A stretch of DNA of 44,743 bases from Jiangella ureilytica. GTDB taxonomy: Bacteria; Actinomycetota; Actinomycetes; Jiangellales; Jiangellaceae. This document shows positions 20,664 through 31,023 of this stretch, one piece after another (positions within the stretch are counted from its first letter, which is position 1; each line of letters begins with the position of its first letter). The notes under the pieces are model-generated. The model worked only from the letters and a program-made list of their open reading frames with translations, did no database searches and was not told the origin of the DNA. Both the position numbers and the translations under genes were made by a program. The stretch covers positions 1 through 44,743 of the forward strand of contig NZ_SMKL01000050.1 in the NCBI RefSeq assembly GCF_004348545.1. The letters are read 5' to 3'.

Positions 20664-22814
20664 ATGGAGTCGATCGACGATGCGCTGGCCACCGGACGAC
20701 GTGGGCTGCGCACCCGCCCCGGCACGTTGCTGCTCGGCCCCACCGGCGCCCGCCTCTGGGCCGACTACCTCGAGCAGCGGCCCGGCTTCGTCGGCGCGAT
20801 CGACCTCGTGCACAAGCTCAACATCCCGATGCTGTTCACCGTCGCAGGCGTCGAGCTGCCGGAACCATGGGAGGCGCACTGGCGGCCCAGCCGGCTGACG
20901 GTGTCAGCGGCGGGCGGTGCGGGCGCGAAGGTGGCGTTCGCCGAGGACAAGTTCGTCACCTGGGACGACTGCGCGGTGTCGCGGCAGGTGTGGACGAACC
21001 GGAGCGCCGAGCCGGTGACCCTGCGGCTCGAGGTCGACCGCTCCTGGATCGACGGCGACGGTTTCGGCTCGCGGCGGGTCGAACGACACGGGTTCACGGT
21101 GCTCACGCTGGTGCGCCCCTCCCACCCGGCGCTGTGGGACGGCCTCCTCGTCGGCCCCGGTCAGCGGGTCGAGTTGGTGGTCGCGGCGGCGCTCGGGCTG
21201 TCCGAGACCGAGACCCGCGACGACCTCGAGCGACGCCTCGACGATGTTCTGGCCACAGGCCCGGCCACAGGCCCGACGAGACCGCGGGCTGACGCCGTCG
21301 TCGATCGCCAGGAGCGCGAGTACCAACAGTGGTTCGACACCGTGCCGTCGTTCACCTGCAGCGACCCGGTGCTGACCCGCCTGTGGGCGTACCGGTGGTT
21401 CCTGCTGCGGCACAACCTCGCCGTGCCCGGGGTCGGCGGGCTGCGCGACTCGCTGTTCTACGAAGGCCGCGCGCACAAGATGACCAAGTCGCCGTGGGAC
21501 CCCGGCGGCTGGGAATTCAGCAAGCTCATCCCGCTGTCCAGCCCCATGCACCTGCTCGAGGCGCGCTGGCATCCAGACCCGTCGCTCGGCGCCGGGCTGT
21601 GGCGCACGCTGCGGGCGGCCCAGGGCGACGACGGGCTTTACCGCAGCCGCACGGTCGCCAGCGAGTTCCACGCCTACGCCAACTTCCTCGGCTGGGCGAG
21701 CTACCAGTACGCCCTCGTCCACCGCGACACCGACGGCGCTGCGGAGATGCTGGCCTCGCTGGCAGCGCAGGTCCGCGGCGAGCGGCTGAAGCTCGCCACC
21801 GGCGGCGACGAGCTTCCGATCGAGACCGAGCACATCCTCACCGGCAAGGAGTACCAGCCAAGCTACTGGGCATTCCACGACTGGCCCGCCGACCCGCGCG
21901 ACCGGTCCGGCTACACACCGCTCAAGCGGGTCGACCGCGCCGTCTACCACCACCTCAACGCGCGCGGCGTGGCCGGCCTGGCGCGGCTGCTGGGGGCAAT
22001 CGAGCCGAAAGCCGACGAGTTCGACGCGCTCGCCGGCACCGTGGCGGCGCAGGTGCTGGCCAAGCAGTGGGATTCCGCCACGGGGTTCTTCTACGACCTG
22101 CACCACGCCACCGACCAGAAGGCCATGGTCCGCAACGTCGTCGGGTTCTACCCGTACTGGGCCGGCATCACCGGCGCGGAGCACCTGCCCGGCCTCGAGT
22201 CGGCCCTGCGACTCTTCGACACGGGTGCGCCACTGCCGTCCACCTCGCCCGGCTCGCCCGTCTACAGCCCCATCGGCGACTGGCGCGGAGTGTTCGTCAA
22301 GGGCCGCAACGGCTGCTCGTGGAACGGCCCCACCTGGCCCTACACCAACGGCGTGGTCATCGACGGCGTCGGCGCGACCAGCCGCCGGTTCGGCCATCGC
22401 TACGACGCCGAGTTCGGCCGGCTGCTGCGCTCGTACGCCCTGCTGCACTTCCAGCAGCGCGACGGCCGCACCCCGTATCTCGTCGAGCACTATGACAGCG
22501 AGACCGGCGAACCCATCAGCGACGAGGTCGACTACCTGCATTCTTACGTCATCGACCTCGTCGTCCGCTACGTCGCCGGCCTCGAGCCCGGCACCGATGG
22601 CTCCACCGTGACGGTCGACCCCCTCGACATCGGGCTGGACCGGTTCGCGCTCACCGGGGCGCGCATCGCCGGGCACGCCGTCGACATCGCCTACGACCGC
22701 GCCGACGGGCTGCGGGTGTCCGTCGACGGCATGCTGGTCGCCGCAGCGCCGGGGCTCAGCCCGCTGACCGTGCCGCTGGGTCCGCCCGCGCCTCGGCCGT
22801 CGACGCCGCGATGA
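20664..22814 (+). CDS. Glycoside hydrolase of the MGH1/GH63-like (alpha/alpha)6-barrel type
   Basis: 716 residues without a signal peptide, hence cytoplasmic. The N-terminal 220 residues form a beta-sandwich-like domain (TLLLGPTGARLWADYLEQRPGFVGAIDLVHKLN). The rest is an (alpha/alpha)6 barrel with DSLFYEGRAHKMTKSPWDPGGWEFSKLIPLSS, ASEFHAYANFLGWASYQYAL, GFYPYWAGITG, NGCSWNGPTWPYTNGVVIDGV and VDYLHSYVIDLVVRYVAGLEP. These resemble mannosylglycerate-hydrolase-like and amylo-alpha-1,6-glucosidase-related enzymes. I do not assign catalytic acids. It is the last gene of the importer operon, starting 4 bp after the aldolase stop. Its 3' end overlaps the convergent LysR-esterase gene by 59 bases. The C-terminal 20 residues are Pro-rich. 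Confidence 0.8.
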   Translation: MESIDDALATGRRGLRTRPGTLLLGPTGARLWADYLEQRPGFVGAIDLVHKLNIPMLFTVAGVELPEPWEAHWRPSRLTVSAAGGAGAKVAFAEDKFVTWDDCAVSRQVWTNRSAEPVTLRLEVDRSWIDGDGFGSRRVERHGFTVLTLVRPSHPALWDGLLVGPGQRVELVVAAALGLSETETRDDLERRLDDVLATGPATGPTRPRADAVVDRQEREYQQWFDTVPSFTCSDPVLTRLWAYRWFLLRHNLAVPGVGGLRDSLFYEGRAHKMTKSPWDPGGWEFSKLIPLSSPMHLLEARWHPDPSLGAGLWRTLRAAQGDDGLYRSRTVASEFHAYANFLGWASYQYALVHRDTDGAAEMLASLAAQVRGERLKLATGGDELPIETEHILTGKEYQPSYWAFHDWPADPRDRSGYTPLKRVDRAVYHHLNARGVAGLARLLGAIEPKADEFDALAGTVAAQVLAKQWDSATGFFYDLHHATDQKAMVRNVVGFYPYWAGITGAEHLPGLESALRLFDTGAPLPSTSPGSPVYSPIGDWRGVFVKGRNGCSWNGPTWPYTNGVVIDGVGATSRRFGHRYDAEFGRLLRSYALLHFQQRDGRTPYLVEHYDSETGEPISDEVDYLHSYVIDLVVRYVAGLEPGTDGSTVTVDPLDIGLDRFALTGARIAGHAVDIAYDRADGLRVSVDGMLVAAAPGLSPLTVPLGPPAPRPSTPR

Positions 22815-23973
22815 ACTCCGCGGCCCGTTCCAGCGCCTCGGCCGCCTCGGGCAGGAACGACCAGTACAGGTGGAACACGTGCGTCGACACCGGGTACAGC
22901 TCCAGCCGCGCGTCGACACCTGCCGCCGTCGCGCGGTCGACCAGGGCCCGGCACTCCGGCAGCGCCGGCTCGCCGGTGGCCGCCTGGACGAGCAGGGGCG
23001 GCAGCCCGGCGAGGTCGGCGTAGAGCGGGTTGACCAGCGGGTCGTCAGCCGGATGACCGTCGAGGTAGATGCCCGCGAACCGCTCGGTGAGATCGACGAT
23101 CCCCATGGGCTGCGGCTCCGAGTGGTCGCGGACGACCCGGCAGGTGAGGTCGACGCCGGGGCTGAGCAGCACGACCCGGCCGGGCAGCGGCGCTCCGTCG
23201 GCCCGCAGCCGCAGCAGCGCCGACATCGCCAGCCCGCCGCCGGTCGAGTCGCCGCACAGCGTCAGCGCCGCCGGGTCGTGCCGCTCGGCCAGCCAGGTGT
23301 ACGCGGCCACGACGTCGTCGGCGGCGGCCGGGAACGGATGCTCGGGCGCCAGCCGGTAGTCGGGCACCAGCACGGTCGCGCTGGCCGCGACCGCCAGCGC
23401 GCCGGCGAGCGGCCGATACCCGTACGCCGATCCCACCACGTAACCGCCGCCGTGAACGTGCAGGATCGACGGCAGCTCGCCGTGGTCGCGGCCGAACGCC
23501 AGTGACGGCACTCCCCCGGCCGTGACGGGGCGCATCTCGATGCCCGCCGGGGTGGGGAACTGGGCACTGAGCTGCTCGTTCGCCGCCCGGAACGCGTCGA
23601 GGTCGTCGACCGACTCGGCCAGCGGCCGCAGCAGCCGCTCGACCCGCTCGTAGGTCTCGCCGCCGACCGACCGCGTGACCTGCACGGCGTCGTCGAGGTC
23701 GGCGAGCACGGTCTTCACGCGGTCGAGCAGCGCCTCACCGGCCAGCGTCAGCTCCACCCGCTGGGTCGTGCGGCGGAGCAGGTCGACGCGGAGCAGCTTC
23801 TCGAGCGAGCTGATCTGCCGGCTCAGCGCCGGCTGCGACAGGTAGAGCCGCTCCGCCGCCCGGCTGAAGTTCAGCTCCTGCGCGACGGCGACGAACGCTC
23901 GCAGGTGCCGCAGCTCGATCGCCTCAGGGGCGTGCGGAAGCTCGATCAGCCGGCCGCGGGGCTCGTTGTCCAT
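22756..23973 (-). CDS. LysR-type HTH fused to a hormone-sensitive-lipase-type esterase
   Basis: 405 residues in one uninterrupted frame. Residues about 20-80 are a full LysR winged helix-turn-helix (LRHLRAFVAVAQELNFSRAAERLYLSQPALSRQISSLEKLLRVDLLRRTTQRVELTLAG), followed by the usual long linker helix to about 100. The normal periplasmic-binding-like sensor is absent. Instead, residues about 110-395 form an HSL (alpha/beta-hydrolase-3) esterase: oxyanion motif HGGG 174-177, DYRLAPEHPFPAAADD 205-220, nucleophile S243 in GDSTGGG, E335 in GEPALPE where Asp is usual, and H365. The triad S243-E335-H365 therefore looks intact. ATG 23973 starts upstream of the HTH. It is divergent from a degenerate esterase and an MFS exporter. 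Likely a regulator whose sensor is an esterase that binds or cleaves the signal. Confidence 0.88.
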   Translation of the reverse strand: MDNEPRGRLIELPHAPEAIELRHLRAFVAVAQELNFSRAAERLYLSQPALSRQISSLEKLLRVDLLRRTTQRVELTLAGEALLDRVKTVLADLDDAVQVTRSVGGETYERVERLLRPLAESVDDLDAFRAANEQLSAQFPTPAGIEMRPVTAGGVPSLAFGRDHGELPSILHVHGGGYVVGSAYGYRPLAGALAVAASATVLVPDYRLAPEHPFPAAADDVVAAYTWLAERHDPAALTLCGDSTGGGLAMSALLRLRADGAPLPGRVVLLSPGVDLTCRVVRDHSEPQPMGIVDLTERFAGIYLDGHPADDPLVNPLYADLAGLPPLLVQAATGEPALPECRALVDRATAAGVDARLELYPVSTHVFHLYWSFLPEAAEALERAAEFIAASTAEARADPAARSAG

Positions 23974-24011
23974 GACCCGAGTATGGCCTAGATCGGGCCG
24001 GCCGGCTCATG

Positions 24012-24042
24012 CCGTTCGTGCATGACGTTCATGCATGAACGG
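24012..24042. promoter_or_regulatory. Nested palindromes in the LysR-esterase/pseudo-esterase divergent promoter
   Basis: GTTCATGCATGAAC (24027-24040) is a perfect 14-bp palindrome. An overlapping larger inverted repeat pairs CCGTTCGTGCA (24012-24022) with TGCATGAACGG (24032-24042) with one mismatch. The site lies 39 bp from the LysR-esterase start and 39 bp from the facing gene's start. LysR proteins bind such dyads between divergent genes, so this is the likely operator. Confidence 0.65.
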
Positions 24043-24081
24043 TCTTTCCCTGCAGGTCAGGGACGGTGCCAAGGTGACGCC

Positions 24082-24681
24082 ATGAGCACGTTCCACACCT
24101 TGACGCCCTGTGCGGCGGGCTACGCGACCCTCGTGCTGCGCGGTCCCGACGGGCCGGTGTACAGCAAGGTCCGCTGGCCGCGGCCGCCCGTCCTCGACCC
24201 GGTCGACGCGCCGGAGCAGCCCTACCCGGTCACCGTGGTCGTGTCCCCGCGGTCCGGCGCGACGCCGCCGGCGGACACGCTGGCGTGCTCGTTCGCGGCC
24301 GCCGGCTCGCTGGTGCTGTCGCTGACGGTGCCGATCGACCCGGCCGGCCAACCGGCCGGCCACCCGGGCGGCGGCCGGAGCGGCGACGCGGGGGGCGACA
24401 GGCGCGGCGACCCGGGCGGCGACGCCGCGGCCGCCGTCGGCGCCGTCCGGACCGCGATCGAGTGGATCGCCGACCACGCCCGCGAGCTCGACGGCGACCC
24501 GCGCCGGCTGACGCTCGTCGGCCAGGCCGGCGTCACCGGGCTAGTCGCCGACGTCGCCGCCACGGCCGAGGAGAACGGCGGGCCGGCGATCGGCCAGCTC
24601 CTGCTGCTCCGCACGGGGCCCGATCCGCCGCCGTCCGCGACCGTCACCCGCCTCGTCCCACCATCCGAACGGAGACCGTGA
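24082..24681 (+). CDS. Degenerate alpha/beta-hydrolase-3-like protein lacking the nucleophile
   Basis: 199 residues; ATG 24082 is preceded by AAGGTGA. The layout follows the front half of an HSL-type esterase: the YPVTVVVSPRSGA segment (48-60) stands where the HGGG oxyanion motif should be. AAAAVGAVRTAIEWIADHARELDGDPRRLTLVGQAGVTGLVADVA (115-159) matches the region around the nucleophile elbow, but GDSAGG is replaced by G147-Q-A-G-V, so Ser is Ala149. The catalytic acid and His half is missing. A Gly/Asp/Arg-rich insert lies at about 88-114. It is followed two bases later by an MFS exporter. It is probably non-catalytic: a binding protein or a decaying gene. The relationship is my pattern reading. 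Confidence 0.6.
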   Translation: MSTFHTLTPCAAGYATLVLRGPDGPVYSKVRWPRPPVLDPVDAPEQPYPVTVVVSPRSGATPPADTLACSFAAAGSLVLSLTVPIDPAGQPAGHPGGGRSGDAGGDRRGDPGGDAAAAVGAVRTAIEWIADHARELDGDPRRLTLVGQAGVTGLVADVAATAEENGGPAIGQLLLLRTGPDPPPSATVTRLVPPSERRP

Positions 24682-24683
24682 TC

Positions 24684-26216
24684 ATGAGCATCGAACTCGA
24701 CCCGGCGACCCAGGCGGCCCCGGCGCCGCCCAGGGCCGGGCGCAAGGCCTGGCTCGGGCTCGCCGTCCTGGCGATGCCGACGCTGCTGCTGTCGCTGGAC
24801 ATCAGCGTGCTGTACCTCGCACTGCCGGCGCTCAGCGCCGACCTCGGCGTCACGTCGACGCAGCAGCTGTGGATCAGCGACATCTACTCGTTCATGATCG
24901 CCGGGTTCCTGGTGGTCATGGGTTCGCTCGGTGACCGGGTCGGACGACGGCGGCTGCTGCTGGTCGGCGGCGCGGCGTTCGCGGCCTGCTCGGTGCTGGC
25001 GGCGTACGCGTCCAGCCCGGAGATGTTGATCGTCAGTCGGGCGCTGCTGGGCATCGCGGGCGCCACCCTGATGCCGTCGACCATGGCGCTCATCCGGACG
25101 CTGTTCCCCGACCCGGCGCAGATGGCGGTCGCGCTGAGCATCTGGTTCTCGTGCTTCATGGGCGGGATGACCATCGGGCCGCTGGTCGGCGGCGTCCTGC
25201 TGGAGCACTTCTGGTGGGGCTCGGCGTTCCTCCTGGGAGTGCCGGTGATGCTGCTTCTGCTGGTGCTCGGTCCATCGCTGCTGCCGGAGCACCGCGAGAC
25301 CACGGCGCCGGGCCGGCTCGACCTGGTGAGCGCCGGGCTCTGCGTCGCGGCGATCCTGCCGGTGATCTACGGGCTCAAGGAGTTGGCGCGTGACGGCGCC
25401 GGCGTGGGTGCTGTGCTGTCGATGGCTGCCGGGCTGGCCCTCGGGGTCGCGTTCATCCGTCGGCAGCGGCGGCTCGCCGACCCGCTGCTCGACCTGCGGC
25501 TGTTCGCGAACCGCCGGTTCACCGTCTCGCTGGGCGCGTTCCTGCTCACCGGCGTCGTCATGGCCGGCGTCTCGTTCGCCGCAGCGCAGTACCTGCAGCT
25601 CGTGGTCGGGCTGTCGCCGCTCGAGGCCGGGCTCTGGCTGATCCCGCAGAACGTGGGCATGGTCGCGGCGACGCTGACGGCGCCGCGGCTGCTGCAGCGG
25701 TACCAGGCCGCCGACCTGCTGGCCGGCGGGCTGGCCGTGGCCGGAGCGGGGCTGCTGCTGCTCACCCAGGCCGGCACGGACTCACTGGCCCTGCAGGTGA
25801 CGGCGATGACGGTGGCGGCGGCCGGCATCGGCGTGCCGATGGCCGTCGTGACGAACCTGATCCTCGCCGCGGCGCCGCCGGAGCGGGCCGGGTCGGCGGC
25901 GTCGCTGTCGGAGACCGCAGGCGAGTTCGGCATCGCCCTGGGCATCGCCTCGCTCGGCAGCGTCACGGTCGCCGTCTACGGCGGGCGCATCGGCGAGCTG
26001 CTCCCGTCGGGCACGCCGGAGCCGCTGGCCGCCGCGGCGCACGAGAGCCTCGCGGCGACTGCGACGGCCACGGCTTCCGCCGGTGGGGCGGGCGCTGGGG
26101 TTCTCGAGGCCGCTCAAGTCGCGTTCACCAGCGGGTTCATCGTCGTCAGCGGCATCGGCGGCGCGGTGCTGCTGCTGGTCGCCGTCGTCGCCCGGGCCGG
26201 GTTGCGCGCGAGGTGA
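24684..26216 (+). CDS. MFS transporter, DHA2 (14-helix) drug exporter type
   Basis: 510 residues. Helix 1 LAVLAMPTLLLSLDISVLYLALPAL carries the LDxSVxxxALP motif C-like pattern of DHA2 exporters. The loop 2-3 motif A is GSLGDRVGRRRLLLVGG. About 14 membrane segments can be counted, including GFIVVSGIGGAVLLLVAVVARAG at the end. SmvA/LfrA-like proton antiporters expel cationic drugs and dyes. ATG 24684 is preferred with GGAG upstream; GTG 24678 overlaps the previous stop. Being co-transcribed with the degenerate esterase and divergent from the LysR-esterase, it is the most likely regulated target. Confidence 0.92.
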   Translation: MSIELDPATQAAPAPPRAGRKAWLGLAVLAMPTLLLSLDISVLYLALPALSADLGVTSTQQLWISDIYSFMIAGFLVVMGSLGDRVGRRRLLLVGGAAFAACSVLAAYASSPEMLIVSRALLGIAGATLMPSTMALIRTLFPDPAQMAVALSIWFSCFMGGMTIGPLVGGVLLEHFWWGSAFLLGVPVMLLLLVLGPSLLPEHRETTAPGRLDLVSAGLCVAAILPVIYGLKELARDGAGVGAVLSMAAGLALGVAFIRRQRRLADPLLDLRLFANRRFTVSLGAFLLTGVVMAGVSFAAAQYLQLVVGLSPLEAGLWLIPQNVGMVAATLTAPRLLQRYQAADLLAGGLAVAGAGLLLLTQAGTDSLALQVTAMTVAAAGIGVPMAVVTNLILAAAPPERAGSAASLSETAGEFGIALGIASLGSVTVAVYGGRIGELLPSGTPEPLAAAAHESLAATATATASAGGAGAGVLEAAQVAFTSGFIVVSGIGGAVLLLVAVVARAGLRAR

Positions 26217-29440: not shown

Positions 29441-30403
29441 TCAGCTGGTCTCGATGACCTGGCGCTCCCCGATTCTCACTCGTGCTACTGCGGTGGGCTC
29501 GGGTGGTTCGAGCGTTCCTTCGGCTCCGGTGGACGCAGTCCAGGTGGCGGTCCAGTTCGCGGTCGCGGTGACGGTGTAGGCGGTCCCCGGCTGGCCGGCG
29601 CTGGTCTGCGTGTAGCTGTGGCCGCAGGTCGGTGACGGGCGGACGCCGAGGCTCGGCCGGTACGGGTCGCCGGGCTCGGCGCACGTGACTGTGTGACCGT
29701 CGCCCATGTCCCAGGTGACGTTCTCGACCTCGGCCGTGACGGTGACCGAGACGCCGCCGACTGTGGCTGCCTCCTGAACCGGTCCCCAGGTGGTCGGGCC
29801 GGCGTTGGTCACCCACATCCACACGGGCGCGCCGACCAGCCCCATGCTCTGCGGGTCGGTCTCGAGCGGTCGTGGCGCGAGCCCCACCTCGAGCGCTTCG
29901 AACGACATGCCGTCGAGGATCTGCTGGGCAACCACTTCCGGATCGACGACGATCACCGGCTGCTCCCACGGCCCCTCCGCCAGCCACATCAGCCCTCGAT
30001 CGCCCCAAGCGAATGAGCCGACTGACCAACTTGCCGCGAGCTTCCGCCACTCGAACATCCACCCCTGATCTGCGGGTCCGGCCCAGTACCCGAGGTAGCT
30101 GAGGTCACCGTCAGGCGGCCTGTATCGCTCGTTAGAAACCGGTGCCAACGGCATCAGGTATCGATCCAAACCCGCATCAAACACGAAGCCGTCAATCTCA
30201 CAGGGCACATTCACGAGCGCTGGATCACCTTGATCGCAACCAGTCTCTATGTCGCCAGGTGGCTCACCGTCCTCCTCGCAGAAGGCACCGTTCCATAGGG
30301 TCCCCGGCAGACAACTCGTCGCCCGTTCGCGAACTAGCAGGGCTTCCGGCCCAAATGACAACAGCGCGAGTGCCATCAGTACGGCCGTTTGGGGCATCAG
30401 CAC
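29441..30403 (-). CDS. Exported protein with C-terminal PKD-like domain
   Basis: 320 residues. A short hydrophobic N-terminus (MLMPQTAVLMALALLSFGPEALL) suggests export. The middle has SYLGYWAGPADQGWMFEWRKLAASWSVGSFAWGDRGLMWLAEGPWEQPVIVVDPEVVAQQILDGM. The C-terminal half, EVENVTWDMGDGHTVTCAEPGDPYRPSLGVRPSPTCGHSYTQTSAGQPGTAYTVTATANWTATWT, has the W-D-x-GDG pattern and beta-sandwich spacing of a PKD domain. Six cysteines suggest disulfides. It overlaps the preceding lipoprotein gene by seven bases. Such PKD proteins occur widely in actinobacteria with unknown function. Confidence 0.75.
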   Translation of the reverse strand: MLMPQTAVLMALALLSFGPEALLVRERATSCLPGTLWNGAFCEEDGEPPGDIETGCDQGDPALVNVPCEIDGFVFDAGLDRYLMPLAPVSNERYRPPDGDLSYLGYWAGPADQGWMFEWRKLAASWSVGSFAWGDRGLMWLAEGPWEQPVIVVDPEVVAQQILDGMSFEALEVGLAPRPLETDPQSMGLVGAPVWMWVTNAGPTTWGPVQEAATVGGVSVTVTAEVENVTWDMGDGHTVTCAEPGDPYRPSLGVRPSPTCGHSYTQTSAGQPGTAYTVTATANWTATWTASTGAEGTLEPPEPTAVARVRIGERQVIETS

Positions 30404-31023
30404 GGCTCATCCAGAGCAACCACGATTCGCCCCAGATACCAACCCGGCTCGTCGGTGCCAGATTCGTGATGCGCCGCAGGTGCGTAGCTCCACGACATCT
30501 GCCAGCGCTGATGGCTTGGCGGTACCGCCGGCAATTGTGCTGTGGCGCCAAGGTAGTCCACATAGTCCAGTTGAGACATATCCAAGCACCCCACCGACGT
30601 CGCTTCGTGAACGCCATGGTCGGTAACGTCGTAGTCCAACTTGAGCACCTCATGGTTGGCAACAGAGGTGCTGCCGATCTGTTCGATCTCAGATGACCGC
30701 CATGCCGCGATCCAGTTCGCAAGGTCTGCGTTGGCTGCACCTTCAACGTTCCACTGACCGACTAGTTCGGCATTCCAGCCAGGCGTGCCGCCGTAGTCGC
30801 TGGCGTTGGCTTTGAAGTCGTCCCATGAGGTGATGAGTTCCTCGAAGGTCGCCCGGATCTCGGCCTCAGCCTGCTGCTCCGCAGTGAGAGCGGGCGGAGC
30901 GGTGATCGCAGGGTCCGTCGTCGGCGCGGGCGAGGGCGAAGGTTCCGAGCCACCGCCACCACAAGCAACAAGAACCACCACGACCACCGCCACCACCGCC
31001 GTCGCGCGATGAGCCGCGAACAT
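30397..31023 (-). CDS. Lipoprotein of unknown function
   Basis: 208 residues. The lipobox LVAC follows a valine-rich signal (ATAVVAVVVVVLVAC), then a Ser/Pro/Thr linker and a globular domain (AEAEIRATFEELITSWDDFKANASDYGGTPGWNAELVGQW ... GWYLGRIVVALDEPC). ATG 31021-31023 is chosen because GGAGGT ends eight bases before it; the longer start at 31044 lacks a site. It is followed in the same operon by the PKD-like protein. A 5-bp microsatellite lies in its leader. I do not recognise a function. The base composition of this gene pair is visibly less GC-rich than its neighbours, which suggests acquisition. Confidence 0.8.
   Translation of the reverse strand: MFAAHRATAVVAVVVVVLVACGGGGSEPSPSPAPTTDPAITAPPALTAEQQAEAEIRATFEELITSWDDFKANASDYGGTPGWNAELVGQWNVEGAANADLANWIAAWRSSEIEQIGSTSVANHEVLKLDYDVTDHGVHEATSVGCLDMSQLDYVDYLGATAQLPAVPPSHQRWQMSWSYAPAAHHESGTDEPGWYLGRIVVALDEPC

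Follow-up and report, generated by a model that had tools for sequence, protein, structure and literature searches.

A LysR-type DNA-binding domain joined to an HSL-type esterase: a candidate ester- or lactone-sensing regulator of a divergent operon in Jiangella ureilytica

What would be sensed by a LysR-type protein whose usual sensor domain has been replaced by an enzyme? This question is raised by a gene of Jiangella ureilytica located at positions 22756–23973 (minus strand) of contig NZ_SMKL01000050.1, of which the whole stretch of 44,743 nucleotides was analysed (the window). The gene starts with ATG, includes its stop codon within these coordinates and forms an open reading frame (ORF) of 405 codons for amino acids with no internal stop, which encodes a LysR winged helix-turn-helix (wHTH) followed by a hydrolase of the hormone-sensitive lipase (HSL) type. 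We consider it fairly probable that the protein acts as a one-component regulator, with an ester or a lactone as the signal that it senses and probably hydrolyses, and that it controls a local divergent operon devoted to detoxification or efflux.

The HTH_1 domain comprises residues 21–80 (23734–23913, minus strand; Pfam PF00126, E 1.5e-22) and provides the wHTH expected of a LysR protein. It is followed by a linker helix (residues 77–120; 23614–23745, minus strand) and by an HSL-type alpha/beta hydrolase domain (approximately residues 113–390; 22804–23637, minus strand), the latter delimited by an Abhydrolase_3 match (residues 170–368, E 2.6e-50), by the alignment with EstD11, the nearest solved structure by sequence in the Protein Data Bank (PDB) (residues 113–388, E 2e-57), and by Foldseek matches. 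The C-terminal effector domain of LysR proteins, resembling periplasmic-binding proteins (PBP-II type), is missing: no LysR substrate domain is among the five Pfam families listed for the fusion, and its C-terminal matches are to hydrolase models only. The active-site set is formed by HGGG (174–177), the nucleophile motif G-D-S243-T-G-G, E335, which pairs with a Glu of EstD11 in the PDB alignment, and H365, with a W371-S372-F373 signature placed just after this catalytic His. Read from its sequence, the ORF is one protein in which a complete HSL-type esterase replaces the LysR sensor domain; the initial annotation had described this fusion, and given these positions for HGGG, S243, E335 and H365, correctly.

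An AlphaFold model of the fusion (six sequences; mean predicted local distance difference test score (pLDDT) 75, predicted template modelling score 0.68) showed a wHTH with helices at residues 21–34, 39–46 and 48–61, a single unbroken linker helix (77–120) running to the cap helix of the HSL domain (125–137), and the alpha/beta hydrolase core. The long helix after the wHTH, through which LysR proteins dimerise, is thus present in the predicted model. The pLDDT falls below 50 at residues 1–16, 102–105, 285–290 and 396–405. The best Foldseek match of the model is EstD11 (7at0; E 5e-25, TM 0.85 on target length), in agreement with a family IV HSL fold with its cap, the helix 125–137 standing ahead of the core. 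At its 3' end the fusion gene overlaps tail-to-tail, by 59 bp (22756–22814), with a convergent ORF for an MGH1-like glycoside hydrolase that ends at 22814.

Two adjacent genes joined through an error of sequencing or gene calling would give the same appearance, and this explanation has practically no chance of being correct: it is refuted by the homologues, as both halves lie within a single open frame in 19 of 19 fusion genomes, with conserved residues flanking the junction on both sides. A split at about residue 100, which the initial annotation had named as the observation that would contradict a fusion, was seen in none of these 19 closest homologues. The 17 other fusions in an alignment of 18 whole proteins, window included, are 91% to 49% identical to the window protein.

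Full-length fusions, carried by some soil actinobacteria, number at least 19: three in Jiangella, five in Kribbella, seven in Nocardia, one elsewhere in the order of Nocardia (G1236) and three in Solirubrobacterales. They are found in 3 of 12 Jiangella genomes (the window's own and 11 others), 5 of 38 genomes of the genus of Kribbella catacumbae, 7 of 128 of the genus of Nocardia concava and 3 of 232 from the order of a Solirubrobacterales metagenome-assembled genome (MAG), whereas 249 genomes of the order of N. concava gave one additional carrier, G1236, which may itself be a Nocardia. Sampling of 396 genomes of the phylum and 393 of the class added no fusion beyond Jiangella and G1116, whose coordinates are the same as those of G628. 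The samples drawn at phylum, class, order and genus level share genomes, and in the large ones four to seven candidates per genome were scored (14 in the genus of N. concava), so that 19 is a lower bound. A contig scan, which relied on two N-terminal patterns only, showed full-length fusions, among the matches listed, in J. asiatica, K. catacumbae, N. concava and two Solirubrobacterales MAGs; the remaining 75 of the 80 loci kept from those matches correspond to a single half only.

How the two domains came together is best seen from the HSL side. When 76 HSL-domain rows (19 from fusions and 57 stand-alone; 72 different) are placed in one tree, the fused halves fall together on one side of a branch supported at 100/100, and the LysR DNA-binding domain with its linker helix was probably joined only once in evolution to an HSL-type esterase. 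Within this tree Krib_catac clusters with the three Jiangella sequences (100/99), apart from the other Kribbella, and Solirub_G874 clusters with Kribbella (90/91, under the tool's star); these placements, together with the patchy distribution, suggest from sequence a horizontal transfer of the fusion. After the fusions, the next relatives are stand-alone HSLs at about 40% identity; for two of these, L184 and L185, no LysR HTH match was found within the 11 kb fetched around each.

The catalytic machinery is preserved throughout. In an alignment of all 19 HSL domains, each one retains HGGG, the Ser of GxSxG and the His; Asp serves as the acid in 17 and Glu in the other two, so that the complete set of family IV elements is found in every fusion. 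E335 had been singled out as an acid replacing the usual Asp; the residue is indeed there, but Glu is no oddity, as 45 of 53 stand-alone HSL relatives use it as their acid. The ratio of nonsynonymous to synonymous substitution rates (dN/dS) of the fusions is 0.14–0.41 (six pairs). Because HGGG, the nucleophile Ser, the acid and the His are retained in all 19, catalysis is probably under selection.

This conservation bears directly on the alternative that the HSL domain serves as a receptor only, in the manner of GID1 or of strigolactone-type receptors, with hydrolysis being slow, single-turnover or irrelevant. Such a role could be read into the signature after the catalytic His: W371, S372 and F373 are present in 18, 18 and 19 of the 19 fusions versus 0%, 6% and 8% of 53 stand-alone HSLs (57 rows less the identical ones), which suggests an altered, perhaps signalling, surface. 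The distant PDB hits of the profile of the companion protein described below also include GID1 chains. A pure receptor, however, would be expected to lose some of the catalytic residues, which are all kept at identities down to 49%; H365, whose loss would define a dead receptor of the GID1 type, is present in 19 of 19, leaving the GID1 analogy of the initial annotation a weak one. We regard a receptor-only role as unlikely.

A conserved 48-bp element is located between the fusion gene and the genes diverging from it (24005–24052, plus strand; score 33 of 44 in the window). It is strong in 15 of the 19 fusion loci, scoring 31–42 of 44 where the highest of 1900 shuffles scored 27, with a consensus built from the very rows then scored, and in 13 of these 15 it is placed 30–42 bp from the fusion start. 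The element contains a LysR-type T-N11-A box (TGC-N7-GCA; 24010–24022, plus strand). A T-N11-A at the equivalent place, a putative LysR site upstream between divergent genes, is found in 17 of 19 loci, including all 15 strong ones, and TGC-N7-GCA in 13 of 19.

Overlapping the box, an imperfect dyad (24012–24042, without assigned strand; CCGTTCGTGCATGA-cgt-TCATGCATGAACGG) matches in 13 of 14 pairs, the best of 200 base shuffles being 12; the Solirub_G516 locus reaches 14 of 14 (11 in shuffles). The segment had been put forward earlier as a candidate site and stands up as such in the window. When the dyad core was searched with up to three mismatches in the 6.35-Mb draft genome, only the window site was recovered, once per strand owing to its near-palindromic nature, and the backward control gave none; a unique site in the genome fits a local regulator. 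The perfect dyad as a general operator was rejected, being supported in only 2 of 19 loci. Closer to the fusion gene, the motif AGTAT (ATACT on the fusion strand) is seen at 23980–23984 and at equivalent positions, so that 11 of 19 loci have it no more than 25 bp from the start of the fusion; it could be the -10 element of a nearly leaderless transcript.

The presence of this box helps to judge a second alternative, in which the protein would be an enzyme first, that is, an esterase whose HTH lets it repress its gene as well as the divergent operon, as trigger enzymes do, with no true ligand-driven allostery. The esterase is complete and related to EstD11, and the oxidoreductase genes in divergent operons (see below) would fit a catabolic role. 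The linker helix and the LysR-type box are nevertheless present as in sensing LysR-type transcriptional regulators (LTTRs), and a fused enzyme would be of little benefit to a repressor that works independently of substrate; we hold this alternative to be quite improbable.

The first gene across the putative operator turned out not to be the exporter that the fusion had been thought to face. The fusion directly faces a companion gene (24082–24681, plus strand; 199 residues) encoding the N-terminal half of an HSL fold, with GQAGV, lacking Ser, at the nucleophile motif and with the part that would carry the acid and the His absent; the exporter gene is second in the operon. Homologous small ORFs occupy this position in 14 of 19 fusion loci, in Jiangella, Kribbella, Nocardia, G1236 and Solirubrobacterales, and code for 136–199 residues, both Solirubrobacterales companions extending somewhat beyond the others. 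With start codons that are the analyst's choice, the distance between the two starts is 107–120 bp in 13 of 14 loci and 58 bp in Solirub_G517, whose fusion start codon has probably been placed too far upstream.

All 14 companions match Abhydrolase_3 at E ≤0.01 (best 2.3e-14), the window companion weakly (E 1.9e-4, 21.7 bits; Pfam cut-off 25). The matched profile positions are only 46–109 and 18–99 of 210 in the two companions examined for this, and the companion profile covers Est2 residues 53–185, the N-terminal half including the nucleophile elbow. A model of the window companion (four sequences, mean pLDDT 71) corresponds to the N-terminal HSL half and retrieves HSL esterases with Foldseek (best E 1.1e-7). 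Read by eye, the alignment shows no nucleophile Ser for any of the 14, and the Ser, acid and His of an active HSL are not brought together in the companion. An origin as a copy of the fused HSL domain is not favoured, the best match being of the Est2 type for the companion profile and EstD11 for the fused domain (no tree made). Using companion profiles that include the sequences they recovered, four scores ≤5e-56 were obtained in 128 Nocardia genomes (next best 4e-29) and four ≤1e-51 in 38 Kribbella genomes (next 1.5e-24), all eight from fusion carriers.

On a Pantoea agglomerans plasmid (L151) and in Ruegeria (L090), a LysR gene and a full-length HSL-type gene are divergent but separate. The Pantoea plasmid matches, and likewise L083 and L090, were rejected as split homologues, being separate genes. 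These back-to-back pairs suggest an ancestor in which a LysR protein governed a facing esterase gene; hypothetically, a second esterase could later have taken the place of the sensor while the facing one lost its catalytic parts. The companion might then be just a decaying remnant of that esterase gene, or a leader ORF coupling the translation of the cargo gene behind it, with no part in the switch. This is a real possibility, to which the Pantoea and Ruegeria pairs, the variable length, the absence from five of 19 loci, a dN/dS of 0.86 in one of six pairs and the 2 bp separating the companion stop from the next start all lend weight. Against it, the open frame is kept in 14 loci of several lineages at a nearly constant distance from the fusion start in 13 of them, codon differences peak at the third position in six of seven pairs (the exception being window versus J. 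asiatica, with 60, 48 and 57) and dN/dS is 0.24–0.47 in the other five pairs. Our preferred reading is that the Ser-less half-HSL would act on the HSL domain of the regulator, as its partner or antagonist, or would buffer the ligand.

Behind the companion, and only 2 bp past its stop (24681), starts with ATG a gene for an exporter of the major facilitator superfamily (MFS), DHA2 type (24684–26216, plus strand; 510 residues; MFS_1 E 5e-45), whose best NCBIfam models fall short of their cut-offs (QepA, 409 bits against 1075; LfrA, 395 bits against 825). All three Jiangella loci have an MFS gene behind the companion, and Krib_G528 and Krib_G556 have a homologous one; the exporter as universal target was rejected, since it is found behind the companion in these loci only, the operon elsewhere going on with genes for an FAD monooxygenase, a RibD_C protein or others. 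Four Nocardia loci (L176, L178–L180) share across the operator a family of genes resembling flavin adenine dinucleotide (FAD) monooxygenases, one member of which was scanned against Pfam (FAD_binding_3). Two members match the tetracycline-destructase model of NCBIfam at 294.5 and 270.3 bits (cut-off 550) and match PRK05868 and PRK07588 better, also under cut-off. A RibD_C protein is encoded divergently from the fusion in Noc_G675 and Noc_G677, after the companion in Myc_G1236, and downstream and convergent in Krib_catac; Noc_concava has a similar ORF, a candidate by likeness.

Other neighbours were also observed. Near Solirub_G874 a further MFS gene is located upstream of the fusion and on the same strand. 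Immediately downstream of the fusion, the four companion-bearing Kribbella loci (L172–L175) carry genes of one cluster, the two in L172 being acyl-CoA dehydrogenases; this cluster is a further candidate for co-function. Farther away, at 29441–31000 of the window, G+C falls to 0.62 (30001–31000) and the ORF 29441–30403 has a third-position G+C of 0.78, compared with 0.87–0.98 in most other called ORFs, so this is possibly acquired DNA.

Taken together, a transcription regulator is envisaged in which the esterase took the sensor's place and which would bind the T-N11-A/dyad element between its own gene and the divergent operon, controlling the operon and probably itself. We infer that an ester or lactone enters the HSL pocket and that occupancy, acyl-enzyme formation or turnover would rearrange the HSL domains and, through the linker helices, the wHTH pair; hydrolysis of the ligand would then terminate the signal. 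The operon would provide detoxification, by an MFS exporter in Jiangella and by the FAD monooxygenase or the RibD_C protein in Nocardia.

Such a one-component regulator with the HSL domain as likely sensor, already proposed in the initial annotation, is supported at the level of sequence by the single frame, the 19 homologues, the one HSL clade, the kept catalytic residues, the dN/dS of the fusions, the shared element and the gene order. It is supported also by the companion in 14 of 19 loci, the high-scoring copies coming only from carriers, and by the efflux or oxidoreductase genes that divergent operons of several lineages contain. Several observations weigh against it. The 48-bp element is weak in Noc_G677 (27), Noc_G675 (26) and Noc_concava (25), not above the shuffle maximum, and is missing in Krib_catac (20); the dyad exceeds its shuffle maximum in only two loci and not in the other 17, nine of the 19 reaching at best 9 of 14 pairs, the shuffle median. 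The domain junction is one of the inner stretches that the model predicts with least confidence, and the HTH tree (96 columns, 100 rows) is compatible with one origin without showing it (support 60). The loci without companion are Krib_catac, Noc_concava, Noc_G675, Noc_G677 and Solirub_G874, and operon content varies by lineage, so that a single target function is not fixed.

A bolder version, held tentatively and with more doubt than conviction, is a horizontally mobile two-gene signalling module in which a self-limiting, DNA-bound transcription factor hydrolyses its own inducer, a dedicated Ser-less half-esterase on the other side of the operator checks or sharpens this factor and the detoxification genes behind are swappable. 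A conserved, apparently catalytically intact esterase as sensor would make a switch able to time itself by destroying its signal, and would supply a ready-made ester or lactone biosensor; the linked half-esterase poses the question of pseudo-enzymes as partners of sensor enzymes.

The literature search found no description of a LysR-HSL fusion, though its coverage of subscription journals was thin and a slash spelling was probably missed, making it weak evidence of absence. According to PMC5882156, LysR proteins make up one of the largest groups of bacterial regulators, and in most of them the sensor is a domain resembling periplasmic-binding proteins; its main text, where the word hydrolase does not occur, counts 24 kinds of companion domain, mainly PBP II, on them in 761 genomes, so swapped LysR sensors as such are already known. 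The fusion resembles LTTRs (PF00126) in its N-terminal HTH_1, the long linker helix of the model, the divergent promoter and the T-N11-A box, and differs in the esterase that replaces the PBP-II type domain. With the family IV HSLs of the EstD11, E40 and EstE5 group it shares the fold, HGGG, GxSxG, Glu/Asp and His, and it departs from them in its DNA-binding domain, its fusion-specific WSF motif and the prevalence of Asp over the Glu of the stand-alone relatives. EstD04, an HSL esterase 41% identical to EstD11, has Glu as catalytic acid, as given in PMC10385968.

Three further systems invite comparison. HSL folds serve as receptors in plants, where the gibberellin receptor GID1 is an HSL-fold small-molecule receptor that has lost the catalytic His; the fusion would be a small-molecule receptor of the same fold, but it retains this His and is itself the transcription factor, and we know of no DELLA-type partner for it. 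The HTH family and the enzyme fold of BzdR differ from those of the LysR-HSL fusion. BzdR is nonetheless a comparable enzyme-derived regulator, being presented, in PMC3602430, as a model for the evolution of regulators by joining of a DNA-binding domain and an enzyme. The Pantoea and Ruegeria pairs likewise set a LysR protein and an HSL-type hydrolase back to back, but as two separate proteins, and they represent a plausible ancestral arrangement of what the fusion unites in one chain.

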